Of a stretch of DNA of 64,000 nucleotides, positions 7,059-48,457 are shown one piece after another (the stretch's first letter is position 1; every line of letters starts with the position of its first letter). The notes beneath the pieces were generated by a model. That model did no database searches. It was not told the DNA's origin and worked only from the letters and a program-made list of their open reading frames with translations. This stretch comes from Mesorhizobium sp. B2-8-5 (GTDB lineage Bacteria; Pseudomonadota; Alphaproteobacteria; Rhizobiales; Rhizobiaceae), in NCBI RefSeq assembly GCF_006440675.2, contig NZ_CP083951.1:1-64000 (forward strand), in the 5' to 3' direction. The position numbers and the translations under genes are program-made.

Positions 7059-8060
7059 TCAGGTCCTCAGCGGCAGGACACGATCCGGCGGACGGTGGCC
7101 GTCGAAGAAGGCGCGGATGTTGATGATCACCTTCTCGCCCATGTCGATGCGGCCCTCGAGCGTGGCCGAGCCCATGTGCGGCAAAAGCACCACCTTGCCC
7201 TTGGCGGCAAGCTTCATCAGCTTGGTGTTGAGCGCCGGCTCGTGCTCGTAGACGTCGAGGCCGGCGCCGGCGATCTTGCCGTCATGGATGAGCTTGACCA
7301 GCGATTCCTCGTCGATGATATCGCCGCGCGCGGTGTTGACGAGGTAGGCCGAAGGCTGCATCAGCGCGAGGCGACGACCCGACAGCAAGTGGAACGTCGC
7401 CGGCGTCGACGGGCAGTTGACGGAGATGATGTCCATGCGGGCCAGCATCTGGTCGAGGCTTTCCCAGTAGGTCGCCTCCAGTTCCTCCTCGACCGCCGGC
7501 AGCACGCGGTGCCGGTTGTGGTAGTGGATCGAGAGGCCGAAGGCCTTGGCGCGCCTGGCGACGGCCGTACCGATGCGGCCCATGCCGACGATGCCGAGAC
7601 GTTTGCCCCAGATGCGCCGGCCGAGCATCCAGGTCGGCGACCAGCCGGCCCATTTCTTCTCGCCCGTCAGCACGTTGGCGCCCTCGGCCAGCCTGCGCGG
7701 CACGGCGAGCATCAGGGCCATGGTCATGTCGGCGGTGTCTTCGGTCAGCACGTTCGGCGTGTTGGTGACGGTGATGCCTTTCTTGGCCGCCGCCGCGACG
7801 TCGATCTTGTCGACGCCATTGCCGAAATTCGCGATCAGCTTGAGGTTTTCGCCGGCCTGGGCGATCAGCGCGGCATCGATATGGTCGGTGATGGTAGGGA
7901 CCAGCACATCGGCTTCCTTGACCGCCGCGACCAGCTCCGGCTGCGTCATCGGCCGGTCCTCGACATTCAGGCGCGCGTCGAACAGCTCGCGCATGCGCGT
8001 TTCGACCGGGTCGGGCAGCTTGCGCGTGATGACGACGAGGGGCCGTTTTTTGCCTGCCAT
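7059..8060 (-). CDS. 2-hydroxyacid dehydrogenase (glyoxylate/hydroxypyruvate reductase type)
   Basis: The 333-residue product is an NAD(P)-dependent D-2-hydroxyacid dehydrogenase. It has the Rossmann motif GMGRIG near the middle, and the catalytic set Arg (NTARGDIIDE), Glu (DVYEHEP) and His (LLPHMGSAT). The overall form is close to GyaR-type glyoxylate reductases. I place the start at the ATG of MAGKKRPLVVITRKLP (8060); the longer reading frame upstream has no family support and overlaps the next gene. It converges on the aconitase X operon, six bases from its stop. Confidence 0.87.
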   Translation of the reverse strand: MAGKKRPLVVITRKLPDPVETRMRELFDARLNVEDRPMTQPELVAAVKEADVLVPTITDHIDAALIAQAGENLKLIANFGNGVDKIDVAAAAKKGITVTNTPNVLTEDTADMTMALMLAVPRRLAEGANVLTGEKKWAGWSPTWMLGRRIWGKRLGIVGMGRIGTAVARRAKAFGLSIHYHNRHRVLPAVEEELEATYWESLDQMLARMDIISVNCPSTPATFHLLSGRRLALMQPSAYLVNTARGDIIDEESLVKLIHDGKIAGAGLDVYEHEPALNTKLMKLAAKGKVVLLPHMGSATLEGRIDMGEKVIINIRAFFDGHRPPDRVLPLRT

Positions 8061-9229: not shown

Positions 9230-9661
9230 TCAATCGCAGCGTTTGGGACGCAGTCTCACCACGATGTCGACATTGGCGATCTCCATGCCTTCCGGCGGCG
9301 CCGGCAGGTTGGAGACGGTGACCGGTCCGCTCTCGATGTCGAAAATCCGGTTCTCGCCCTCGACGTAGAAGTGATGATGGTCAGAGGTGTTGGTGTCGAA
9401 ATAGGTTTTCGAGCCTTCGACCGCCAGGATGCGCAACAGGCCGGCCTGGGTGAATTGGTGGAGCGCGTTGTACACCGTCGCCAGCGAAACCGGCACGCCG
9501 GCGGCAATCGCCTCTTCGTGCAGTTCCTCGGCGGAAAGGTGGCGGTCGCCCTTGGCAAACAGCAGGTCGGCCAGCGCAATGCGCTGACGCGTCGGCCTCA
9601 GGCCGGCTTCGCGAACCCGCTTGTCCACAGCGACATTTTCCTTCCGATAGCCCGAATCCAT
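9230..9661 (-). CDS. irr: Iron response regulator Irr (Fur family)
   Basis: Irr is the rhizobial Fur-family regulator that senses iron through haem status and controls iron and haem genes through ICE motifs. The 143-residue product has the Fur winged helix (LRPTRQRIALADLL, SLATVYNALHQF) and the HHH cluster in TSDHHHFYVEGE that forms a haem site in Irr. The N-terminal haem regulatory motif GCPWHD of Bradyrhizobium Irr is absent, as in most other rhizobia. The ATG at 9661 is used; a GTG at 9667 is possible. It is divergent from fabA, a rhizobial arrangement. A perfect ICE palindrome at 46338 is a likely target. Confidence 0.9.
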   Translation of the reverse strand: MDSGYRKENVAVDKRVREAGLRPTRQRIALADLLFAKGDRHLSAEELHEEAIAAGVPVSLATVYNALHQFTQAGLLRILAVEGSKTYFDTNTSDHHHFYVEGENRIFDIESGPVTVSNLPAPPEGMEIANVDIVVRLRPKRCD

Positions 9662-9907
9662 CTTCACGTCGAAGCTTTGTTGCCCAGCCCATCAACAGGT
9701 CCAGCATGGCAAAAAGACGTCAAAAGCCAAAACCGGACATCAGCCGACATATATTCTGTAGTCCGAATGCGATCAATAGCGCGCATTGACCCGGGCAGGC
9801 GCACGGGTTAAGCGCAAACGCCGGTTTCCGGCCGCAAACAGAGTGTGTTAGGAAACCAACGACAAGGGCGCCCTGCCGCCCGCGAAGAACACGGGGACAG
9901 AAATTTG

Positions 9908-37900: not shown

Positions 37901-38701
37901 TCAGCGGCTCTTTGCCGGGTCGGCGAGGATGGCCTGCATCATCTCGCGCACCTTGGCTTCCATCAACCTTGCCGTCTCCTTGCGGTTCGAACCCTTGGAG
38001 AACGGCACCGGCTCGCCGAAATGCACCTCGGCATCGATCGCCCCTTCGGCAAGCAAGGTTTTCAGGTGCGGCATCAGATCCTGGTCGCCGATCCAGGCGG
38101 TCATGGGCCGATGGCGGCGCCCCATGGGCATGCCGTGCAGTCGCGTGTAGGCGATCGCCACGGGCTGGATGAAGACCTGTTCGGCCGCCCCTTCCGAAAT
38201 CGCCATGGAGGCCGCGCCGAACAGCGTGCTCTTGAACGGCAGCACGAGGTTGCCGTCGCCGGTCGAGCCTTCGGCGAACAGCACCATGGCATCGCCCTTG
38301 GCCATGCGCCTGGCAATCTGGCTTGCTTGGTCGCCGGAAGTGCGCTTGCGCTCGCGCTCGATGTAGACGGTGCGCTGCAGCTTGGACAGCATGCCGATCA
38401 GCGGCCAGCCCTTCATGTCGGCCCGGGCGATGAATTTCACATCGACGAAGGAGCCGAGCACCATGATGTCGGTCCAGGAAATGTGGTTGGCCGCGACAAG
38501 CAGCGGACGTTCCCTGGCCAGCGCGCCCTTAACATGCACCCGCATGCCGAGCGCCCGCAGGATCATGCTGTGCCAGATTTTGAGAATGAAGGTTTCGGGC
38601 CACAGCCCCGTCTTCATCGACAGCATCTGCAGCGGCACCAGCACCAGCGAACAGACGACGACATAGGCGAGCGCCAGGAAAATCCGCAATTTCTTGATCA
38701 T
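37901..38701 (-). CDS. plsC: 1-acyl-sn-glycerol-3-phosphate acyltransferase
   Basis: PlsC makes phosphatidic acid from lysophosphatidic acid at the membrane. The 266-residue product has an N-terminal membrane segment (LRIFLALAYVVVCSLVLVPLQ), the catalytic NHISWTD (H-x4-D), the YIERERKRT and FAEGSTGDGN motifs. It lies between rimI and miaB. Confidence 0.92.
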   Translation of the reverse strand: MIKKLRIFLALAYVVVCSLVLVPLQMLSMKTGLWPETFILKIWHSMILRALGMRVHVKGALARERPLLVAANHISWTDIMVLGSFVDVKFIARADMKGWPLIGMLSKLQRTVYIERERKRTSGDQASQIARRMAKGDAMVLFAEGSTGDGNLVLPFKSTLFGAASMAISEGAAEQVFIQPVAIAYTRLHGMPMGRRHRPMTAWIGDQDLMPHLKTLLAEGAIDAEVHFGEPVPFSKGSNRKETARLMEAKVREMMQAILADPAKSR

Positions 38702-38728
38702 TCGCTCCGGCCCTATCGCGCGGACTGG

Positions 38729-39223
38729 CTAGCGAAGATCGCGGCGCATGACAAGCGCGCCGGTCGGGCCGTGCTCGGTCGAGCGATAATAGTTCGGCCG
38801 ATGGCCGACCTGGCGGAAGCCGAGCCTGCGGTAAAGCCCGATCGCCGGCGTGTTGGTCTCGTCGACCTCGAGGAAGAGCGCCGCGGCGCGCTGCGTATGC
38901 AATTCGCGCAGCACCGCGTCCATCAATTGCCAGCCGAGCCCCTGGCGGCGATGCGTGCGGGCGACGGCCAAGGTCAGGATCTCGCCCTCGCCGGCCGCCA
39001 GCCGCGCGAGCACGAAGCCGACCGGCGGCTTGGAGCCTTGGCCGGTCTCACGCGCGGCATAGCCGAAGACCGTGTCCTGCTCGAGAAGTGCTGCGAATTC
39101 GCCGTCGGTCCAGGGCCGCACGAAATCCTCGCGATGCAGCACCGAAACAGCGGCGCTGTCGGCGACCGTCAACGGTTCCAGCGCATAGTCCCTGCGGCGC
39201 GGCTGAAAGAACGGTATGCGCAT
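38729..39223 (-). CDS. rimI: Ribosomal protein S18-alanine N-acetyltransferase RimI
   Basis: RimI is a GNAT that acetylates the N-terminus of ribosomal protein S18. The 164-residue product has the acetyl-CoA motif RRQGLGWQLMDAV near residue 95 and the FLEVDETNTPAIGLYRRLGFRQVGHRPNYYR segment typical of RimI. Its start overlaps the tsaB stop by one base (TGATG). The pairing with tsaB is conserved across bacteria. Confidence 0.9.
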   Translation of the reverse strand: MRIPFFQPRRRDYALEPLTVADSAAVSVLHREDFVRPWTDGEFAALLEQDTVFGYAARETGQGSKPPVGFVLARLAAGEGEILTLAVARTHRRQGLGWQLMDAVLRELHTQRAAALFLEVDETNTPAIGLYRRLGFRQVGHRPNYYRSTEHGPTGALVMRRDLR

Positions 39224-39912
39224 CAGGAATCGTTTCCCCTGTCCTGCCTTGGCAGAATGAAACCCGCCTGCGGCTTGGCGTCGGCGCCGCGCAGATAAAG
39301 CGGTTTGGGCTTTTCGCCCGGTTCCCTGGCCGAGGCCAGCCTGGCATAGGTCGCGATGTCGGCTGTGGCGGCAACGGGACCAGTTTCGAAGGCACGACCC
39401 GCCGCCTTGGCAATCTGCGGCGCGGCGGTCCCGACCAGGACCGCGTCGGCGCCGATGGCCATGGTCACTGCCTCGGAAAGCGCAGCTACGGAAGGTCCGT
39501 AAGTCTCGGCTAACGCTTTATCATAGAGCGCCGCATGAATTTCCTCGCGGCCGGCATCGAGCGCGGCAAGCACCGCGCGCCCGGGAAAGGCATTCGCAGC
39601 CTCCGCCGCCAGGGCTTCCAGCGTCGTCACGCCGATCGCCGGGATTTTCAGCGCCAGCGCCAGGCCGCGCGCGGTCGAGACGCCGACGCGCAGGCCGGTG
39701 AAGGAGCCGGGTCCGATCGAGACGGCAACAGCGTTGAGGTTCGGGTAGCCGATCCCGCCGGCTTGCAGGGCCGTCTCGATGACGGCCATCAGATGCTCCG
39801 CATGCCCCTTGCCGAGGTCGCGCACCTCACGGCCAAGCTCCTTCCCCGCGCCTGCATCATAGACGCAGGCAGCGCAGAGACTGGCGGCGCAGTCGATGGC
39901 GAGCAGCTTCAT
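39223..39912 (-). CDS. tsaB: tRNA threonylcarbamoyladenosine protein TsaB
   Basis: TsaB forms the TsaBDE complex that completes the t6A37 modification of tRNA. The 229-residue product begins MKLLAIDCAASLCAACVYDAG, has the IGPGSFTGLRVGVSTARGLALAL motif and the AALDAGREEIHAALYD segment typical of the family. It is first in the tsaB-rimI-plsC-miaB block. tsaD and tsaE are not in this window. Confidence 0.94.
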   Translation of the reverse strand: MKLLAIDCAASLCAACVYDAGAGKELGREVRDLGKGHAEHLMAVIETALQAGGIGYPNLNAVAVSIGPGSFTGLRVGVSTARGLALALKIPAIGVTTLEALAAEAANAFPGRAVLAALDAGREEIHAALYDKALAETYGPSVAALSEAVTMAIGADAVLVGTAAPQIAKAAGRAFETGPVAATADIATYARLASAREPGEKPKPLYLRGADAKPQAGFILPRQDRGNDS

Positions 39913-40048
39913 ATAGGCAACTTCATATGGCCATTAATGAACTGGATCGAAACACAATTCCCTCTGCCCGGCATAGGCCGCCGCCGCAAGAGCCAAGGCG
40001 GAGAAATGTTAAGCGGCTTTGCTTCCCTGCAGCGCCAGGACCTTGTTG

Positions 40049-41161
40049 TCAGGCAGAGGCCGCGATGCGCAGCATGTGGTTGTCCCAGACATAGTCCGGC
40101 TCGGAACGGGTCGAGCCGGCGCCGCCGACGATCTCGCCGGCGCCGGTCGTTGCCATGAAGCCAGCGCCGTCGGGCGCGAGGCCGCAGACCTCGACCAGCG
40201 ATCTGGTCGCGACCACGCGTCCGCTGGCGGCGTCGAGGACGGCCAGCGAATTGCCTTCCGGCGAAGTGATGGCGACCGTACCTGTGGCGGCATTGGCGGC
40301 GACCGAGCCGATATAATTGCGGAAGCCGGAGAGCACATCCTGCGGCATCTCCAAGAGCTCGAGCTCCTTGCCGCGCGCGGCGCGGCCGACCAGCGCGGGG
40401 CGGTCGGTCGCCGGCCCGCGATATTGGCAGCCGAACCAGACGGTGCCCGCCTGGTCGCGATCCATGTGGCGGATCGACAGCTGATGCAGCGCCGGCGGCA
40501 ATTCGTGCTTTTCGATCAGGTCGCCGGTGACGCGGTCTACGAGCGTATAGGACGGCTTCATCGTCGCGATGTTGAGCTCGGCCCGGCCATAGTCGGGATG
40601 GGTTTCGATGCCGCCATTGGCGATGGCTAAAGTGCGGCCATCGCCGAGCAGGAGCAGCTCATGCGGCCCCATGCCATAGGTCGGGAATTCGCCGATGCGA
40701 TTGAATTTCTCCCGCGCATCGTAGACACCGACGACACCTGCCGCATTGTCGAAATCGTTCTCGGTCGCATAGAGCAAGGCGCCGTCGGGCGAGAACACGC
40801 CATGGCCGAAGAAATGCCGGCCGGCGATGCTGGCGATGGTCAAGGGCTTGTCGCGGCCGGCTTGGTCGAAGACGACGGCGAAGGTGCCGGGCTGACGGGC
40901 GAAGACCACCGAACGCTTCGACACCGGATCGAAGGCGACGTCATGGCCGCGATCGGGCAGATCGACCGTATGCAGGATTTTTCCCGCCTCGGAGAGCACG
41001 GCGGCGCCGAAGCTGCCGTCACGCTTGACGAAGGCCGTGGCAAACACCGCGTCCGCGGCAAGCGTGTCGGCCCAGGCACGCGGCGCCATGGCGGCGGCAA
41101 AGCCGGCGCCCGCGGCGCGCAGGAAATCGCGGCGATCGATGAGCTTTGTACTCCACGCCAT
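40049..41161 (-). CDS. DUF1513 protein, predicted Tat-exported
   Basis: A 370-residue protein with an N-terminal twin-arginine signal (DRRDFLRAAGAGFAAAMAPRAWA), then a repeat-rich body typical of beta-propellers: GHDVAFDPVSKRSVVFARQPG, GHGVFSPDGALLYATEND, YGMGPHELLLLGDGRTLAIANGG, ITSPEGNSLAVLDAASG. DUF1513 proteins occur in imelysin operons across proteobacteria; their function is unknown. It is the last gene of the probable iron operon, three bases after the second imelysin, suggesting a periplasmic role in the same process. Confidence 0.88.
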   Translation of the reverse strand: MAWSTKLIDRRDFLRAAGAGFAAAMAPRAWADTLAADAVFATAFVKRDGSFGAAVLSEAGKILHTVDLPDRGHDVAFDPVSKRSVVFARQPGTFAVVFDQAGRDKPLTIASIAGRHFFGHGVFSPDGALLYATENDFDNAAGVVGVYDAREKFNRIGEFPTYGMGPHELLLLGDGRTLAIANGGIETHPDYGRAELNIATMKPSYTLVDRVTGDLIEKHELPPALHQLSIRHMDRDQAGTVWFGCQYRGPATDRPALVGRAARGKELELLEMPQDVLSGFRNYIGSVAANAATGTVAITSPEGNSLAVLDAASGRVVATRSLVEVCGLAPDGAGFMATTGAGEIVGGAGSTRSEPDYVWDNHMLRIAASA

Positions 41162-41164
41162 CGA

Positions 41165-42247
41165 TCAATCTCCGTCCAGCGACGAGAAGCCGGCGGTCAG
41201 GCCGAACTCGGCGGTCATCCTGGTGCCGATCAAGGTCGACAGGCTCGACGTGATCAGCGCGAAATGCTCGAGCTTGTCGCGCAGCGCTGGGTCCGCGAGC
41301 GCCTTGTCGATCGGACCGGTGATCGACTTCGCCGTCGCCACGCCGTTAGTGAGCTGGATGTGGATGGATTCGGCCATCCATTGCGCATCGGCGGGCAGCG
41401 CATCGCCGAGCTTGGAAGCCTGGAACAGTTGGTCGATGCCGGACAGGTTTGCGGCCAGCGAAGCCGTCGTGTTCTGCGAGCGCCAGTAGATCGCCTGCTT
41501 CGGCTTGTCGGCATCGGGCCTGGCGCCGAGAAAACCTTTCAGCCGCACATCGCGGATCATGTCCAGCTCGTTGATGAAGACACCGACCAGTTCCGTCACC
41601 GCTTCGTTGCCGTCACGGTAGAGCGGGTTCTTCGGCCCCGGATTGGCCCAGAGCGACGCAAAGCCGTCGGGCTTTTGCCAGGCGTCACGCACCTCGCCGG
41701 CCATCGTTTCGACGTTGCCGGCGACAGCCGAGCCATAAGCGCAGCGATAGGGATCGTCCTTCCTGGCGAGCGTTTCGGCGCCGTCGCCGTAAAGCACATA
41801 TTCGAGCCCGCCGAGGCCCTGCATGGCGACGCTCTTTTGCGCCAGTTGCGCTGGATCGGTGGCTGACGGATCCTTGGATGCCAGCGTGGACTGCACTTGC
41901 CTCAGGCCGATGCTCTTGCGGTCCGGCCAATAGAGCATTCGCTCCAGCCGGTTGTTCTCCTTGATCGGCCCGAAGGCGATGATCTCGGCCACCGACCAGG
42001 CCTCCACCGTGCCGGAAAACGCCGCGCGCGCCGCTTCGAGATTCTTTTCGGACGGCGCTTCGCAGAGCTGGTGCATCGCCTTGGTCAGGCCCGCCGCATG
42101 CTCGTCGAGGCTGGCATAGGCCGGGCGGACGAAACCATCGATCGCGCGGCCGATGACATCGGAGGCCTTCACCGCGGCCGATGCCGGCAGGGAGATCGCC
42201 AGAAAAAGCGGAAGGGCAAGGGTGGCGGCCAGGCGTTTCGACATCAA
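41165..42247 (-). CDS. Imelysin-family protein (second paralogue)
   Basis: A 360-residue periplasmic protein with a cleavable signal (LAATLALPLFLAISLPASAAV) and an imelysin/M75-type helical body. The imelysin GxHxxE motif is altered here: the matching segment reads MQGLGGLEYVLYG, keeping the Glu but not the His. In known operons a second paralogue with this change accompanies the classical one. Imelysins are thought to bind iron or haem-linked iron in the periplasm and despite the name are not clearly proteases. It overlaps the di-haem enzyme gene by four bases. Confidence 0.85.
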   Translation of the reverse strand: MMSKRLAATLALPLFLAISLPASAAVKASDVIGRAIDGFVRPAYASLDEHAAGLTKAMHQLCEAPSEKNLEAARAAFSGTVEAWSVAEIIAFGPIKENNRLERMLYWPDRKSIGLRQVQSTLASKDPSATDPAQLAQKSVAMQGLGGLEYVLYGDGAETLARKDDPYRCAYGSAVAGNVETMAGEVRDAWQKPDGFASLWANPGPKNPLYRDGNEAVTELVGVFINELDMIRDVRLKGFLGARPDADKPKQAIYWRSQNTTASLAANLSGIDQLFQASKLGDALPADAQWMAESIHIQLTNGVATAKSITGPIDKALADPALRDKLEHFALITSSLSTLIGTRMTAEFGLTAGFSSLDGD

Positions 42248-43848
42248 AGCGACTCCAGGAATTTAATCAGCGCGTCACGATCGGCCGCGGCGGCCCCGGC
42301 AAAGCGATCGCGCGCCTTCTGGCCTTCGCCGCCATGCCACAGGATCGCCTCGGCAAGCGAGCGGGCGCGGCCGTCATGCAGATAAAAAGCATTGCCGTTG
42401 ACTGTCGCGGTGAGCCCAATACCCCAGAGCGGCGGGGTGCGCCACTCGCTGCCGCTCGCTTCGCCGACCCGTTGCCCGTCGGCAAGGCCCTCGCCCATGT
42501 CGTGCAGCAGGAAGTCGGAATAAGGCCAGATCAGTTGGAAGGCCTGCGCCTTGTTGGGTGTGCCGCGCATGGTGACGAATTTCGGCGCGTGGCAGGAGAT
42601 GCAGCCCATTTCGTAGAACTGCTTCTTGCCGGCGAGCACGTCAGGTTTGTCGAGATCGCGCCGCGCCGGCACGGCCAGATTCTGCGAATAGAAGGTGACG
42701 AGGTCCATGACAGGGGGCGGCGCCTCGGCCGTGCCGAGGCGTTGCTGCACGCCGCTCGGCATGGCAAGGCAATCCGTCTGCGCCTTGGTGCAATCGCCCC
42801 AATGCTTCGGCATTTCCGGCGTGGAGATGCCGATATCGCCGGCAAAGGCATCGGCCGCCTGCTGGCGGATCGAGGCGGTCTGCGCCTTCCAGCCGAAGCG
42901 GCCCATGGTCACCGCGCCGCTCAGTTCGTCGCGCACGATGTTCGGCCGGCCCGAAATGCCGTCGCCGTCGCGGTCATCCGCATCGGCATGGGCGAGAATA
43001 TCGGCCGGCGCGATCTGCTCGATCAGGCCCAGCCCGATCATCGGCGGCGTCAGCCGAGGCGAGAGCGTGGTGCGCGGATCGAGTGGGCCGTAACCGAGAT
43101 TTTCGACCGAATAGCTTGGCTTGCGCAGCGCAACAACAGCGCCGTCGCCGAGCGTCACTTTTTGCTCCTGGTAATCGACGCGCATCCGGCCTTCGCCTTT
43201 GAGGCCCGGAACCGCAAGATCCTGCAGTTGCGCGCCATAGATGGAGTCGGGAAAGTTCAGCACCTTGTGGTCGGCAAGCGCGGCCTTTTCCTCGGCGCTG
43301 GCGGCGTCGCGCGCCAGCCGCAGGAACATAGACGTCGATCCGGCATCGCCTTCCGGCGGACGGCCGCGCCCGTCCTTCAGATGGCAATTCTGGCAGGCGC
43401 GCTCGTTGAACAGCGGGCCGAGCCCGTCCGAAGCCTGGGTCGAGGATGGCGACGACACCCAGTTCTTGCGGAACAGCGCGTTGCCGAGCTTGAAGCTGCC
43501 CTCTTCCTCAAAGGTGATGTTGGCGGAGGATTGCGAAAAGGCATCGCGGTTGACGTCCTTCCGCGACGTGCCGGCGCCGCCCTGCATCAGCTCGAACGGT
43601 TCGGGCCTGGTAAAGTCGGTCGTTGGCCTGGTGACTGCCAGAACCCGCGCCTGATCCTTCGGCGTCAGGTCGGTGCGGCTCGTCGGGAGAGCGGCTGGCT
43701 CACCGGCCATGGCGGGCGCGGAAAGCATGACCGCCAGCAAAAGCGACGCCCCGCTGCCGATCCGGTATCGCGGGATCTTCTGAAGCGGCAGGCCGTCGAT
43801 CGCGGCCCGCAGCGCGCGGCGCGAAAAATGATCTACGGGGCGCCGCAT
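42244..43848 (-). CDS. Di-haem oxidoreductase (DUF1111)
   Basis: A 534-residue exported c-type cytochrome with a signal sequence (about residues 30-49, SGASLLLAVMLSAPAMAGEP) and two CxxCH haem sites: CQNCH near residue 150 and CISCH near residue 390. The RPPEGDAGSTSMFLRL and DLHPLFN-like GPLFNERACQNCHLKDGRG segments mark DUF1111. The enzyme may oxidise or reduce iron in the periplasm; that role is inferred from its operon. It begins 12 bases after bfr and overlaps the second imelysin by four bases. Confidence 0.88.
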   Translation of the reverse strand: MRRPVDHFSRRALRAAIDGLPLQKIPRYRIGSGASLLLAVMLSAPAMAGEPAALPTSRTDLTPKDQARVLAVTRPTTDFTRPEPFELMQGGAGTSRKDVNRDAFSQSSANITFEEEGSFKLGNALFRKNWVSSPSSTQASDGLGPLFNERACQNCHLKDGRGRPPEGDAGSTSMFLRLARDAASAEEKAALADHKVLNFPDSIYGAQLQDLAVPGLKGEGRMRVDYQEQKVTLGDGAVVALRKPSYSVENLGYGPLDPRTTLSPRLTPPMIGLGLIEQIAPADILAHADADDRDGDGISGRPNIVRDELSGAVTMGRFGWKAQTASIRQQAADAFAGDIGISTPEMPKHWGDCTKAQTDCLAMPSGVQQRLGTAEAPPPVMDLVTFYSQNLAVPARRDLDKPDVLAGKKQFYEMGCISCHAPKFVTMRGTPNKAQAFQLIWPYSDFLLHDMGEGLADGQRVGEASGSEWRTPPLWGIGLTATVNGNAFYLHDGRARSLAEAILWHGGEGQKARDRFAGAAAADRDALIKFLESL

Positions 43849-43860
43849 TCCCGCATGTCC

Positions 43861-44346
43861 TTACTCCGCCTCGTTGGCCGAGTCGGCGTTGAGCTGGCCG
43901 TACTTTTCCTCGCCGATCGAGGCAAGCAGGTCGAGCTGAGTTTCCAGGAAGTCGATATGTCCTTCCTCGTCGGTCAAAAGGTCCTCGAACAGCTTCATCG
44001 AGACGAAATCGCCTTCCTCGTGGCAGATCTCGCGCGAGCGTTTGTAAGCGGTGCGCGCGTCATATTCGCCGGCCAGATCGGATTCGAGCACTTCCTTGAC
44101 GTTCTGGCCGATGCGCAACGGCGCGACGGACTGCAGATTGGGATGGCCTTCGAGGAAGATGATGCGCGCGATCAGCCTGTCGGCGTGATGCATTTCCTCG
44201 ATCGATTCCGCCCGCTCCTTCTTTGCCAGCTTGGTGTAGCCCCAATCCTCGAGCAGACGATAATGCACCCAGTACTGGTTGACGGCTCCAAGCTCCAGAA
44301 ACAGAGCTTCATTAAGCCGCTCGATGACCTGCGGTTCGCCTTTCAT
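43861..44346 (-). CDS. bfr: Bacterioferritin
   Basis: Bfr is the haem-containing 24-mer iron store. The 161-residue product is a four-helix ferritin with ferroxidase ligands Glu18 ([13 protein letters not shown]), Glu51 and His54 (EEMHH), and the haem-ligand Met52 in the expected place; the second site includes Glu in ICHEEGDF and EEGHIDFLE. It overlaps bfd by 35 bases. Irr usually represses bfr in low iron in rhizobia; here the only ICE box seen is upstream of the imelysin gene. Confidence 0.96.
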
Positions 44347-44623
44347 GGGGTCTGCTCCCGTATTGGACGCGCAAGCCTCTCACGCGGTCCAGGTGTGAAA
44401 CGATGTCCACGCCGCCCACCTCTGAGCGGGCGTGGTAGTTCTCGGTGACCCGAATGATCGTTTCCACCACATTTGGGAAACAGCCGCAACAGCGACCGCG
44501 CTTGCGCATCGCATGATAGACCTTCGCGGGCACGATCAGCTGCCAGGGATCCTCATCCAGCAGGCCGACGATCGTCTGCTCGATCTCCTTCTCGGTGATG
44601 ATGTTGCAATGGCAGATCAGCAT
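44312..44623 (-). CDS. bfd: Bacterioferritin-associated ferredoxin
   Basis: Bfd is a [2Fe-2S] protein that passes electrons to bacterioferritin so stored iron can be released. The 103-residue product has the family Cys pattern: Cys4 and Cys6 (ICHC) and Cys45/Cys48 (CCGC). It is longer than the 64-residue enterobacterial Bfd: after the domain a basic tail ([32 protein letters not shown]) extends into the bfr gene in another frame, a 35-base overlap. It follows two tandem palindromes after the imelysin gene. Confidence 0.9.
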
Positions 44624-44674
44624 TCACTTGCTCTGGCTGACGGCGCCGGCCACGGCGCCGCTTGGATTATTTGT

Positions 44675-44727
44675 TAGTCGGGCATGATCTTGTCCAAAAA
44701 CCGGTATCCACTTTTTGGGATCATGCC
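44675..44727. repeat. Palindromic repeat, tandem copy 1
   Basis: Arms GGCATGATC and GATCATGCC enclose a GTCCAAAAACCGGTATCCACTTTTTGG core. A second copy follows at 44735-44788 in direct orientation with a 60-base period. The pair lies between the imelysin and bfd genes, within the probable operon. Confidence 0.85.
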
Positions 44728-44734
44728 TGTTTCC

Positions 44735-44788
44735 TAGTCGGGCATGATCTCGTCCAAAAAACCGGTATCCACTTTTTGGGATCATGCC
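44735..44788. repeat. Palindromic repeat, tandem copy 2
   Basis: Same element as 44675-44727, one base longer in the A run. Each copy can fold into a hairpin on the transcript and could attenuate the operon or set relative bfd-bfr levels. Confidence 0.85.
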
Positions 44789-44795
44789 CTGGACC

Positions 44796-46085
44796 TTACT
44801 TGAACACCTTGTCGGGAGCGTCCAGGCTGTCGGAGCCCTCGAAGGCGATCTGGTTCAGCTTGAGCGAGCCGACGGCGCGCTCGATCGACTTGGTCTGGTC
44901 GATCAAGGCGTCGATTGCCGCCTGGACGGTAGCGTTGCCTTCGGTGTTGCCTTCGGCGATCTGCTGGTCATAGGCCTCGCCGGCCAGCGCGCGCGCCTGG
45001 ATGGCCTCCATCTTGGCGATGGTGGTGTCGAGCTTGCCCGACAGTTCCTTGTCGATCGCCGGATCGGCGGCCTTCACCATGTCGGCCACCGACGGACCCG
45101 AAACCACGGAGCCGTCGAGCCGCTTGTAGCTGGCATGGTAGGCGTCGCGGATGCCGACCGCGTCATAGAGATGCGAGATGTAGGTGTTGTCGGAGAAGCA
45201 GTCGTGCTCCTCTTCCGGATCGTGCAGCAAAAGGCCGAGCTTCATGCGCTCGCCGGCCAGCTCGCCATAGGAGAGCGAGCCCATGCCGGTGAAGATGGTG
45301 GAGATGCCGGCATTCGCATCGCCGTCGGTGAGGGTCTTGCGCGCGGCGCCGTCCTCCTTCCAGTTGCCGACCATTTCCTGCAGGTCGGACACCAGAAGAT
45401 CGCTCGCCGATTTCAGATATTCGGCGCGACGGTCGCAATTGCCATTGCTGCAATTCTTGAGGTCGTAGTCGGTAAAGGGCCGCTCGCCGGCGCCCGGGCC
45501 TGTGCCGTGCAGGTCCTGGCCCCAGAGCAGGAATTCGATGGCGTGATAGCCGGTCGCGACATTGGCTTCGACGCCGCCGGCCTCCTGCAGCGTGCCCGAA
45601 AGGAACTCCGGCGTCAGCTTCGAGGCGTCGACCTTCTTGCCGTTGATCTCGATTTCCTTGTTGGCGATGACGTTGGCCGTATAGAGCGCGTTTTCGTCCG
45701 ACTCGCTGCCATAGCTCTTGGCGACATAGTCGATCAGGCCCTCATCCAGCGGCCACGAATTCACCTTGCCTTCCCAGTCGTCGACGATCTTGTTGCCGAA
45801 GCGGTAGACCTCGGTCTGCTGGTAGGGAATGCGCGCGGCCTTCCAGGCTTCGCGCGCGGCGTTCAACGTGTCGGCCGAGGGGCTGGCGATGAGTGCGTCC
45901 ACCGCCTTGTCCAGCGCCTGCGCCGTGGTCAGCGAATCCTCGTATTTGGCCAGTGCGATGTCGGCATAGGTCTTGATCACCGCCTTCGCGTCGGTCTCGG
46001 CTTTCGCCGGCAACACGAAAACCGCCGCCGTCAGTGCAGCCGTGGCGCAGATCGCAGCCAGCCTGCCGCCATTACGTGCCGTCAT
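44796..46085 (-). CDS. Imelysin-family iron-regulated protein
   Basis: A 429-residue periplasmic protein with signal peptide (AAICATAALTAAVFVLPAKAE). It has the classical imelysin motif GYHAIEFLLWGQD (GxHxxE) near residue 195 and a second helical repeat; the overall size matches iron-regulated imelysins (IrpA, ICMP) that bind iron in periplasmic uptake systems. The ATG at 46085 follows a GGAGAAGGAT Shine-Dalgarno; the upstream reading frame (to 46205) is not supported. It leads the probable iron operon and lies downstream of an ICE palindrome at 46338. Confidence 0.93.
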   Translation of the reverse strand: MTARNGGRLAAICATAALTAAVFVLPAKAETDAKAVIKTYADIALAKYEDSLTTAQALDKAVDALIASPSADTLNAAREAWKAARIPYQQTEVYRFGNKIVDDWEGKVNSWPLDEGLIDYVAKSYGSESDENALYTANVIANKEIEINGKKVDASKLTPEFLSGTLQEAGGVEANVATGYHAIEFLLWGQDLHGTGPGAGERPFTDYDLKNCSNGNCDRRAEYLKSASDLLVSDLQEMVGNWKEDGAARKTLTDGDANAGISTIFTGMGSLSYGELAGERMKLGLLLHDPEEEHDCFSDNTYISHLYDAVGIRDAYHASYKRLDGSVVSGPSVADMVKAADPAIDKELSGKLDTTIAKMEAIQARALAGEAYDQQIAEGNTEGNATVQAAIDALIDQTKSIERAVGSLKLNQIAFEGSDSLDAPDKVFK

Positions 46086-46506
46086 TATCCTTCTCCAGTT
46101 CCTTGGAAATTCAACAATAGGCGCATGTGTCCACCCGCGCCGAGGCATGAGCATGCCGGGAAAAATGGTGGCCGCGCCGATGCGCGGTTCGCGATAAAAA
46201 GACACCCACTTGCCTCCAATCGAAAGGGTTCAAGGCCCAGCCATCAAAGGGATGCGCTTCGCGCGCAGCTCTCCATAAAGCGATGGAGAGGCCTGGAGTC
46301 AACCGGCGCGGCAGAAAAAATTCAATTGAAACAATACTTTAGAATTATTCTAAACTAGGATTATCAACTTTAAGACGATCGCCCGACCGGGAGACCGGAT
46401 TGACAGGCAGCCGTTCTGGGTGCGACCCGGACGCCTGCCCTTGCGGCGGCGGCAGACAATCGCCACTTGGCGCAAGAGCCTAGAGTTCCAAGACAAAAGG
46501 ATTGCG
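46086..46506. promoter_or_regulatory. Divergent control region of the iron operon
   Basis: This 420-base gap separates the imelysin operon (minus) and the FAD reductase (plus). It holds the ICE box at 46338-46354 and a possible plus-strand promoter: TTGAAA at 46326-46331 and TCTAAA at 46349-46354, 17 bases apart. No credible gene was seen in it. The region is AT-rich around the box. Confidence 0.6.
46338..46354. promoter_or_regulatory. Irr-type ICE palindrome
   Basis: TTTAGAATTATTCTAAA is a perfect seven-base inverted repeat with a three-base spacer, matching the rhizobial iron control element bound by Irr as known to me. It is 253 bases upstream of the imelysin start and 153 upstream of the FAD reductase. 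It overlaps the predicted -10 of a plus-strand promoter. irr is in this window at 9230. Confidence 0.8.
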
Positions 46507-47760
46507 ATGACGAACGGGGTTGTGATTGTCGGTGCCGGCCATGCCGGCGTGCAGGCCGCAGCCAGCCTGCGCGATGAGGGCTATGAAGGGCCTGTCATCC
46601 TGATCGGCGACGAGAAGGAACTGCCCTATCACAAGCCGCCGCTGTCCAAGACCTTCATCAAGGACGCCGAGGCCAAGCCGCAGCCCCTGCGCGGCGAAGC
46701 GTTCTACACCGGCAACAACATCGATTACCGGCCGGGCGTGCGCATCGAGAGCATCTATGCCCGCGCGGGCCAGCTGAATGTTGCAGGCGGTGGAACGCTC
46801 GCCTTCGACCGGCTGGTGCTTGCCACCGGCTCGCGGCCGCGCCTGCTCAAGCTCGACGGCGCCGGCCTTGCCGGCGTGATCTCGCTACGCTCGCTGGCCG
46901 ATGCGCGGGCGATCCGCGAGCTCAGCGCGCAAAGCGAGGACGTGGTCATTCTCGGCGGCGGCTTCATCGGCCTGGAGATCGCGGCGACGCTAAGGGCCGC
47001 CGGCCGCAACGTCACCGTCGTCGAGGCCGTCGACCGGCTGCTTGGCCGCGCCGTGGCGCCTGTCATCGCCGCGCATGTGCGTCAGCGCCTGGAAGCGATC
47101 GGCGTGCGCATCCTGACCGGCACCACCATTGCCCGCCTCGAGGGCGAAGGCGGCCGCGTCTCGGCCGCGATCACGTCCGGCGGCGAGCGCTTGCCGGCGC
47201 AGATGGTCATCATCGGAATCGGCGTGGTGCCCAATGTCGAACTGGCGGAAGCCGCCGGCGTGGCTACCGGCAACGGCATCCGCGTCGACAAGCATATGCA
47301 AAGCTCCGTTCCCGAAATCCTCGCCATCGGCGACGCGGCCTCCTACAGGCACTGGTTCACAGGCGGCGACGTGCGGCTGGAATCGGTGCAGAACGCCACC
47401 GACCAGGCCAGGCTTGCAGCCCGCACCATCCTCGGCCATGCCGAGCCGTTCTCGGCCGTGCCGTGGTTCTGGTCGGATATCGGCGACATGAAGCTGCAGA
47501 TGGTGGGGCTGACGCAAGGCGGGGACAGCCACGTTGTGCTCGGCGATCTCGCCGACAACAAGTTCTCGATCTACCATTATGCCGGCGACCGGCTGCTCGG
47601 CATCGAATCCGTCAACCGTCCGGCCGACCATATGCTTGGCCGCAAGATGCTCGGCGCCGGCTTCTCGCCGGCGCCGCAGACGGTGGCAGGCGGGCCAGAT
47701 GCGCTGAAGGCGGCGCTCGCGGACTTCAGTCAGGACGAACCCACCAGGGCGGCGGGCTGA
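46507..47760 (+). CDS. FAD-dependent NAD(P)H-ferredoxin reductase
   Basis: The 417-residue product is a pyridine nucleotide-disulfide-type oxidoreductase of the ferredoxin/rubredoxin reductase group: FAD site VVIVGAGHAGVQAAASL at the start, NAD site VVILGGGFIGLEIAATL near residue 145, the AIGDAASYRHWF segment and a C-terminal reductase domain. No redox-active CxxC is seen, as expected for this group. The ATG at 46507 gives the family's normal start. It is divergent from the imelysin-bfd-bfr operon across the ICE box, so it could feed electrons to Bfd; that is inference. Confidence 0.87.
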   Translation: MTNGVVIVGAGHAGVQAAASLRDEGYEGPVILIGDEKELPYHKPPLSKTFIKDAEAKPQPLRGEAFYTGNNIDYRPGVRIESIYARAGQLNVAGGGTLAFDRLVLATGSRPRLLKLDGAGLAGVISLRSLADARAIRELSAQSEDVVILGGGFIGLEIAATLRAAGRNVTVVEAVDRLLGRAVAPVIAAHVRQRLEAIGVRILTGTTIARLEGEGGRVSAAITSGGERLPAQMVIIGIGVVPNVELAEAAGVATGNGIRVDKHMQSSVPEILAIGDAASYRHWFTGGDVRLESVQNATDQARLAARTILGHAEPFSAVPWFWSDIGDMKLQMVGLTQGGDSHVVLGDLADNKFSIYHYAGDRLLGIESVNRPADHMLGRKMLGAGFSPAPQTVAGGPDALKAALADFSQDEPTRAAG

Positions 47761-47842
47761 TTGTTCAATCCACTATGATGATAACAACGCTCGGGGGCGC
47801 GAAAGGACGCACCCACCAAGCCTTGGCAAAAGGCCATCGCCG

Positions 47843-47863
47843 AATTATCATAAATTGATAATT
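47843..47863 (+). promoter_or_regulatory. Operator-like palindrome of parD
   Basis: AATTATCA (47843-47850) and TGATAATT (47856-47863) are perfect complements with a five-base AT spacer, 26 bases before the parD start. AT-rich palindromes just upstream are the usual binding place of RHH antitoxins. Confidence 0.55.
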
Positions 47864-47888
47864 TCGGATAAAGCGAAAGATTTGCTCC

Positions 47889-48146
47889 GTGCCTGCAAGC
47901 TACAGCATTGGCTCCCGCTACGAGGCATTCGTGCGCGAGCTTGTCGAGAGTGGCCGCTACGCCAGTGCAAGCGAAGTCGTGCGCGATAGTCTGCGCCTGC
48001 TGGAGGAGCGTGAAGAGCACCGGCAGGCGAAGCTTGCTGCACTGCGTGAAGACATCCGCAAGGGTGTAGAGAGCGGACCAGCTATAACAGCCGACGACGT
48101 TTTCGATCGGCTGGAGAAAAGATACGCGGCGGAAAGCCGCAAATAA
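47889..48146 (+). CDS. parD: ParD-type antitoxin
   Basis: An 85-residue antitoxin of the ParDE family: SIGSRYEAFVRELVESGRYASASEVVRDSLRLLEEREEHRQAKLAALREDIRKGVESG, a ribbon-helix-helix followed by a toxin-binding helix. The GTG start gives the full domain. The stop overlaps the parE ATG by one base (TAATG), so translation is coupled. It probably represses its own promoter at the AT palindrome upstream. Confidence 0.92.
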   Translation: MPASYSIGSRYEAFVRELVESGRYASASEVVRDSLRLLEEREEHRQAKLAALREDIRKGVESGPAITADDVFDRLEKRYAAESRK

Positions 48147-48457
48147 TGGCTCTCAGTTTCGCGCCTGCCGCCGTGCAGGACATCGAAGAGATTGGCGATT
48201 ACATCCAAGCTGAAAATCCGGCGGCCGCCCGCCGCTTGATAGCGGCACTTCGAGTGCGATGCGACACCATCTTGGATGCACCACGTGGTGGCGCTCCCCG
48301 TTCCGAACTCTGGCGCGGCCTGCGTTCCGTCGCGTTCCAGAGATATGTCATCTTCTATACCGTCGAGCGTAACAATGTGCGCGTTGAGCGCATCCTGCAT
48401 GGCTCGCGCGACATCCAGGGCATTTTCGATGAAAGGAAAATGCCCAAGGATAGTTGA
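48146..48457 (+). CDS. parE: ParE-type toxin
   Basis: A 103-residue RelE/ParE-superfamily toxin: ALSFAPAAVQDIEEIGDYIQAENPAAARRLIAALRV and FQRYVIFYTVERNNVRVERILHGSRDIQGIF (the conserved LHGARD-like C-terminus). Family members inhibit DNA gyrase; this is inferred by homology. It is translated directly after parD. Confidence 0.91.
   Translation: MALSFAPAAVQDIEEIGDYIQAENPAAARRLIAALRVRCDTILDAPRGGAPRSELWRGLRSVAFQRYVIFYTVERNNVRVERILHGSRDIQGIFDERKMPKDS

Follow-up and report, generated by a model that had tools for sequence, protein, structure and literature searches.

A Candidate Irr-Controlled Operon of Mesorhizobium Joins Two Imelysins with Bacterioferritin behind a Conserved Leader RNA

Results

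Gene Content of the Locus

The DNA considered here, the first 64,000 nucleotides (nt) of contig NZ_CP083951.1 of Mesorhizobium sp. B2-8-5 (assembly GCF_006440675.2, forward strand; the window), carries six closely spaced minus-strand genes for an imelysin, a bacterioferritin-associated ferredoxin (Bfd), bacterioferritin (Bfr), a di-haem DUF1111 protein, a second imelysin and a DUF1513 protein, which diverge from a ferredoxin reductase gene (Table 1). We propose that the six genes probably form one operon under the regulator Irr, headed by an Irr box (iron control element, ICE, a term used in the review PMC7762939), a predicted promoter and a small folded leader RNA that recurs before many other iron genes of Rhizobiales.

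Table 1. Features of the operon, its head and its likely regulator (coordinates of the window)
Feature	Position	Strand	Basis or remark
DUF1513 protein	40049..41161	-	PF07433; Tat-type signal RRDFLR
Imelysin 2	41165..42244	-	Pfam; GxxxxE = GLGGLE at 144, without His; resembles IPPA/PA4372
Di-haem DUF1111/DHOR protein	42244..43848	-	PF06537; CxxCH at 152 and 416
bfr, bacterioferritin	43861..44346	-	TIGR00754, 183 bits (cut-off 125.55)
bfd, bacterioferritin-associated ferredoxin (2Fe-2S)	44312..44623	-	Place beside bfr; cysteines
GC hairpin, AGCCA/CAGCCA flanks, upstream of bfd, no T tail	44634..44663	-	Similar in most fused loci by eye
Palindromic intergenic repeat, two copies, imelysin 1-bfd gap	44680-44727, 44740-44787	.	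Sequence comparison
Imelysin 1 (Peptidase_M75)	44796..46085	-	Pfam; GxHxxE = GYHAIE, residue 179
Possible leader open reading frame (ORF), GTG, 32 codons, started by the leader's Shine-Dalgarno	46111..46209	-	Product not conserved
RNA leader, 38 nt, CCTTTGATGGCTGGGCCTTGAACCCTTTCGATTGGAGG	46213..46250	-	Conserved fold; just downstream of promoter
Predicted operon promoter: TTGACT 46302-46297, CTTTATG 46280-46274	46274..46302	-	Conserved; 35 nt downstream of ICE
ICE (Irr box), perfect palindrome TTTAGAATTATTCTAAA	46338..46354	.	Motif scoring
Ferredoxin reductase, FAD-dependent (Pyr_redox_2 + Reductase_C)	46507..47760	+	Pfam; divergent from operon
irr, likely regulator	9233..9667	-	NF045678, 223 bits (cut-off 150); NF045677, 207.8 (170)

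The first-pass annotation of this DNA had described these seven genes in this arrangement, and their coordinates and Pfam assignments bear it out, with Bfd identified by context. Every operon gene and the reductase score above the Pfam cut-off, Bfd excepted: it reaches 17.5 bits against Fer2_BFD (PF04324; cut-off 26, E 0.0054), its PDB matches include no Bfd, and its name derives from its position next to bfr and its cysteine pattern (C4, C6, C45, C46, C48). The divergent reductase is a candidate for the enzyme that might reduce Bfd, and bfr was found as a single copy in the 6.46-Mb genome. The genes are tightly packed: bfd and bfr overlap by 35 nt, bfr and the DUF1111 gene lie 12 nt apart, the latter meets imelysin 2 at stop and start codons, and 3 nt separate imelysin 2 from the DUF1513 gene. 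The sole real gap, 172 nt between imelysin 1 and bfd, spans 44624-44795; its existence had been recognized, with limits (44675-44788) that we correct here.

This gene set is a variant of the known imelysin operon. A GxHxxE imelysin, a DUF1111 protein and a GxxxxE imelysin lie on one strand, as in the Fur-regulated PA4370-PA4373 genes of Pseudomonas aeruginosa, of which PA4370 and PA4372 represent the two imelysin forms (PMC3143127); a link to iron is likewise shared, as far as the ICE and the behavior of a relative indicate. The difference is that here bfd-bfr interrupts the series between imelysin 1 and the DUF1111 gene, and that the head carries an ICE and an RNA leader. Published locus tags of Rhodobacter sphaeroides already place an imelysin next to bfd and bfr: RSP_1546-1548 are bfr, bfd and imelysin (PMC3413700 and PMC4344238), a likeness drawn from the locus tags. 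EfeUOB shares the imelysin-type domain and the handling of periplasmic iron; it differs in that imelysin 1 has no cupredoxin domain and that the genome gave no match to the permease FTR1/EfeU (PF03239), for which a control search was positive in 4 of 14 genomes, including E. coli. Rodionov et al. (2006) are said to have treated imelysin-type clusters, and no paper joining imelysin, bacterioferritin, bfd and operon was found in the literature searched.

Conservation of the Fused Layout

How widely is this arrangement shared? Among the best 80 of 588 Bfr relatives, 48 loci have the six genes in identical order and strand (the fused layout), 38 of them with the reductase and tsaB-rimI, 7 with the reductase and 3 without, and the reductase is divergent at 45 of the 48. 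One other locus is ended by a contig edge, and the remaining 31, mostly from Rhizobium, consist of bfd-bfr alone. DUF1513, present in 96 of the 151 genomes of the family, provided a second set of 94 loci, fetched from those genomes with the own genome and G099 (fragment only) left out. Thirty are fused, counting L169 (broken bfr), L190 (no Bfd call) and L202 (two Bfr). In 58 others imelysin 1 is present and bfd-bfr absent, 4 show just imelysin 2-DUF1513, and 2 nothing but DUF1513. Outside the family, each of the eight DUF1513 loci sampled is unfused (L281-L288, one per family code, from 127 genomes with DUF1513). The Bfr and DUF1513 sets overlap (e.g., L073/L122, L082/L143 and L030/L157), and because of this the 75 fused loci used below for the ICE, from which L067 and L169 were set apart as incomplete, are not independent.

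In a FastTree tree of four joined proteins, which came with a long-branch warning and an outgroup that was not one side of a branch, 36 of 102 rows are fused. Thirty of them fall, with one unfused row, into a clade of 31 with SH-like support of 99, and six lie outside it; changes between the two states number 7, compared with 29.7 after shuffling. Given the many loci and the few changes on the tree, the fusion is, as judged from these comparisons, old, and it may have had a single origin followed by losses or several origins. A chance arrangement is ruled out by the two locus sets and the tree. By the same comparisons the fused layout is a stable trait of Mesorhizobium and its kin. The seven-gene order that the first-pass annotation proposed to look for in relatives is thus present there, and the layout, which it had called the most unusual system in the window, is not rare.

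Two variants deserve mention. L169, from the same genus, retains a bfr remnant at 7882-7991 in which only residues 1-16 and 134-153 match, with bfd and the other genes kept. In L283, from another family, bfd-bfr is divergent and adjoins an unfused imelysin operon.

An Irr Box at the Operon Head

The palindrome that had been noticed between the reductase and the operon is confirmed as a perfect ICE. When scored against what we take to be the ICE consensus, it is the only site of at least 12/14 in the window, and a whole-genome search allowing at most 1 mismatch returned 4 places in 6.46 Mb, compared with 0 for the reversed pattern. The other three lie upstream of mbfA (574.2 bits, cut-off 450), a gene for an Nfu scaffold protein, and a cysteine desulfurase gene. 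An upstream ICE thus coincides with an irr gene in the same genome, here even in the same window.

A score of 13-14/14 within 500 nt of imelysin 1 was obtained for 60 of the 75 fused loci (shuffled mean best 8.3) and 12/14 for one more. All of the remaining 14 (at most 11/14) have an extra first gene, which encodes a protein that we call X, directly upstream of imelysin 1, and in 13 of these an ICE of at least 12/14 lies near the X start (searched in a wider stretch, without shuffles). Among unfused loci the same test found a site of at least 13/14 in 1 of 57, several X-bearing ones having a site upstream of X. Control of the operon by Irr is therefore probable and well supported at the sequence level. 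As to the Irr-controlled operon of the first-pass annotation, the conserved ICE, the irr gene and the specific genomic sites speak for it; the position of the predicted promoter, with the ICE upstream of it, had been missed.

In the unfused operons, a motif search returned TTTGACAC(A/C)AGTTT in 29 of 57 loci, which belong to another clade (among L116-L193), with a TC(T/C)AAA half-site upstream in 20 of the 29, at a spacing of 8 nt in 19 and of 5 nt in 1.

Promoter and Transcript

An alignment of 55 reductase-imelysin spacers and diverse loci displays a TTGAC(A/T) and TTTAT-like pair downstream of the ICE, because of which the ICE would be centered near -79. Of the leader loci described below, 24 of the 32 from the family and 19 of the 40 from the order have TTGAC with a -10-like element no more than 80 nt from the leader (shuffled 1.3 and 1.0), and the pair is also present in 58 of 75 fused upstream regions (without shuffles). 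It counts against this prediction that a generic scan called no promoter at the operon head.

Do the six genes share one transcript? Where bfd stands alone, a TTGACA is found in the 120 nt before it at 30 of 31 loci; none of 78 imelysin-bfd gaps contains one (TTGAC occurs in 2 of 78). Co-transcription is supported by this comparison, and the six genes are probably one operon; the single transcript assumed by the first-pass annotation gains from it, the transcript itself being what we infer. Alternatively, there might be two or more transcripts, such that the ICE serves only the reductase and imelysin 1, and bfd-bfr and the remaining genes are expressed from the 172-nt gap. The repeats and strong hairpins of the gap (z -6.05) speak for this, and the stand-alone bfd of Rhizobium has a TTGACA of its own. 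We nevertheless consider this quite improbable: besides the missing TTGACA, the best ICE-like score upstream of the inserted bfd is 7-10/14 in 77 of 77 loci, the distance from imelysin 1 is 11-143 nt in 74 of 77 (217, 217 and 1188 in the others), and the generic scan, although it also missed the operon promoter, marked neither a promoter-like site nor, on the minus strand, a terminator-like one within the gap. A GC hairpin after imelysin 1 is found in many unfused operons as well. The gap repeat resembles BASRCI27/BASRCI408 at scores far below their gathering scores, and its dispersal over the genome is not shown, as a search allowing 3 mismatches hit nothing but the copy at 44742-44787.

A Conserved Leader RNA

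Just downstream of the predicted promoter lies a short element, overlooked in the first-pass annotation, that can fold into an outer stem (CCUUUGAU/AUUGGAGG) and an inner stem closing the loop CCUUGAA. Its 3' arm is the Shine-Dalgarno sequence, which pairing of the outer stem would therefore sequester. The element was first gathered as 55 distinct sequences, with a search pattern in which most of the inner GGG/CC was already set. In 26 of these, selected by us, 87.6% of cells are paired and 6 of 14 pairs have changed on both sides (0 of 500 shuffles). In 85 aligned sequences, pairing reaches 89.0% and 11 of 14 pairs have both-side changes; these number 65 against 23.3 in shuffles, none of 500 of which reaches 65, and covariation is 0.220 against 0.144. 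Sliding the partner lowers all measures except the both-side-changed pairs at +3, which tie. The 85-sequence result is supportive and not independent, because a model already holding the structure chose most of the sequences, so that pairing is inflated.

Several observations weigh against the fold. The pair types in the 26-sequence set are within chance (63 of 500 shuffles); RNAalifold finds both-side change in 3 of 10 pairs of this set, with a covariation score at chance (55 of 500); and the 191-nt leader of the window folds no better than shuffles (z 0.73). On balance, the leader is a conserved structure predicted to sequester the Shine-Dalgarno sequence. It shares with known structured leader RNAs (Rfam 15) a folded 5' leader that hides this sequence and matches none of those families: no Rfam 15 match overlaps it at E <=5 (window 38500-48000), and 8 other leader loci gave none at gathering score. 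No earlier description was found in the literature searched, and the leader is the novel part of the system.

Two coding explanations were considered. A conserved peptide from the possible leader ORF is not supported, given that lengths and frames differ between loci; a second candidate start, GTG at 46205, shares the reading frame of imelysin 1. A small protein encoded by the leader itself (frame WALNPFDW) was rejected in view of non-synonymous changes in other genera, the lack of a fitting start codon and, in several loci, a frame broken upstream. In bfd- and X-type leaders (L249, L251, L257, L264-L267, L273 and L275), inspection by eye shows a further small hairpin (GAACC..GGTTC or GACC..GGTC) past the Shine-Dalgarno sequence, a start codon lying inside its loop or close to it.

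Distribution of the Leader

A covariance model matches the leader in 48 of 49 fused Bfr loci, the miss being a cut locus (L036), and in the window's own genome only at this operon. Matches occur in 72 of 151 family genomes at E <=0.05 (52 matches at E <=1e-5) and in 51 of 249 order genomes, of 15 family codes, at E <=1e-3. Of 85 family matches listed, the surroundings were read for the 52 strong ones, 26 at imelysin operons and 26 elsewhere, and for 6 weaker ones, 27 being left out; from the order, 40 of the 55 matches outside the genus were read. The 32 family loci outside imelysin operons precede bfd-bfr (19), X with bfd further on (3), X (6), a sulfate-binding protein (2), DUF6746 (1) and Fe-S_biosyn (1). 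The 40 order loci comprise 9 imelysin operons (L333 with a Bfd match inside), 16 FbpA-like genes (4 followed by X), 5 bfd-bfr, 5 X, 2 cupredoxin-FTR1, and one each of FeoB, Fe-S_biosyn and an unclear case; the FbpA-like protein of L301 is nearest to FbpA-type iron-binding structures. Upstream of the leader, no more than 160 nt away, 23 of the 32 family loci and 13 of the 40 order loci carry an ICE of at least 12/14 (0.25% and 0.1% in shuffles), as do, within 200 nt, 8 of the 16 fbpA-like uptake genes. Among the DUF1513 loci, the leader was detected at 22 of the 30 with the fused layout and at 3 of the 58 without it that have imelysin 1 (E <=1e-5).

Some loci count against the reading favored in the Discussion. 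At 8 of the 30 fused family loci the model found no leader (L133 among them is cut inside imelysin 1), and it found none at E <=0.01 at any of the 31 stand-alone bfd-bfr loci of the Bfr set. At L250 and L264, a gene for a sulfate-binding protein, with no obvious tie to iron, follows 0.5-0.7 kb on, identified for L264 by PDB 5um2/1sbp and for L250 by likeness to L264. L271 unites reductase, ICE, leader and bfd-bfr without imelysin genes. Tandem ICE-like sites upstream of the leader were seen by eye at L253, L254, L258, L269, L272 and L280.

Protein X, of about 165 residues with conserved CxxCPL and CRDEC-like motifs, is recurrently the first or next gene in leader-headed iron operons (L253, L268, L272, L304, L305, L307, L309, L327 and others); a search for it in the genome of the window gave no hit (best E 0.34). 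It has no Pfam or NCBIfam match; among 120 listed of 167 relatives none has a precomputed Pfam domain, and those named are called hypothetical. Its model is confident and all-helical (mean pLDDT 86.8), and a comparison with the PDB gave nothing below E 0.001 (best 0.8).

Discussion

From these features, a sequence-based scenario emerges that we judge somewhat likelier to be right than wrong: one operon, with a promoter 35 nt downstream of the ICE, activated by Irr at low iron and gated at translation by its leader. We envision that the six genes would be transcribed from the TTGACT-N17-TTTATG promoter with the ICE upstream, near -79. In its haem-free form, which is the active one under iron shortage, Irr would most likely bind this ICE and activate. 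The mRNA would begin with the folded leader concealing the first Shine-Dalgarno sequence, until some iron-linked signal opens it. The imelysins, the di-haem protein and DUF1513 might then manage periplasmic iron, and Bfd, perhaps reduced by the divergent reductase, might free iron from Bfr.

Would Irr activate or repress? It is reported to do either according to the position of the ICE, activation being common, and a point against activation is the repression of bfr by Irr that the same review states for iron-limited Rhizobiales (PMC7762939). Irr might likewise repress this operon, silencing it under iron shortage and leaving it expressed when iron abounds, in which case the imelysin/di-haem set would serve storage or detoxification instead of scavenging. 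Repression would suit an ICE-leader head common to the fused operon and to stand-alone bfd-bfr of other genomes, and, judged by where their ICEs lie, mbfA, nfu and the desulfurase gene seem to be repressed. The mbfA ICE comes after a TTGACG, with 16 nt between its end and the start codon, and that of the desulfurase likewise comes after a TTGAC, at the start region. Unlike at mbfA, the operon ICE lies upstream of the conserved -35 and not over the promoter. The same leader, moreover, precedes fbpA-like, FTR1 and feoB uptake genes in other families, and bfr, bfd and imelysin of Rhodobacter rise on iron limitation. In the R. sphaeroides irr mutant under iron limitation this rise was 4.5-fold for bfr, 12.3-fold for bfd and 19.7-fold for imelysin, with 1.99 for bfr and 2.71 for bfd in the column that we take as wild type (PMC3413700); since it occurs without Irr, it supports the direction but not the regulator. 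All in all, repression seems unlikely, and Irr probably activates the operon at low iron, a preference that we do not hold strongly.

What might the leader sense? Accounts of rhizobial iron control center on two proteins, Irr and RirA (PMC7762939). The presence of the leader before many other iron genes of Rhizobiales makes it possible that control is exerted by RNA as well as by protein. As a tentative and, in our estimate, rather unlikely proposal, the leader would represent a new iron-linked class of regulatory RNA of this order, a riboswitch or similar, sensing the iron, haem or Fe-S state and gating translation of genes for uptake, storage, periplasmic handling and Fe-S on top of Irr, and the operon would be a merger, under one head, of two operons that each have this ICE-leader head in some lineages. 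The chances appear evenly balanced that the leader is no iron sensor at all, and instead acts as a constant translation element or is bound by a small RNA or a protein common to iron genes. Its primary sequence, GGGCCUUGAACCC, is very highly conserved, as a binding site would be, its stem has many G-U pairs and a modest predicted energy, and two loci lead to a sulfate-binding protein; against this stand its link to iron genes of unrelated families and a 3' arm that holds the Shine-Dalgarno sequence. Conserved before iron uptake, storage and Fe-S genes in numerous genera of the order, and frequently preceded by an Irr box, the RNA would constitute a second layer of iron control and would yield a list of co-regulated genes that includes the X family of unknown function. 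The operon also allows a clean test of whether imelysin systems act at low or at high iron, because the transcript of the imelysins would also encode bacterioferritin and the ferredoxin that releases its iron.

Neighboring Genes

The end of the operon is adjoined by tsaB-rimI-like genes (38729-39912), kept in 38 of the 80 Bfr loci. Downstream of the reductase, a ParD/ParE toxin-antitoxin pair is found at 47889-48457 (PF03693, 60.6 bits; PF05016, 69.8 bits).

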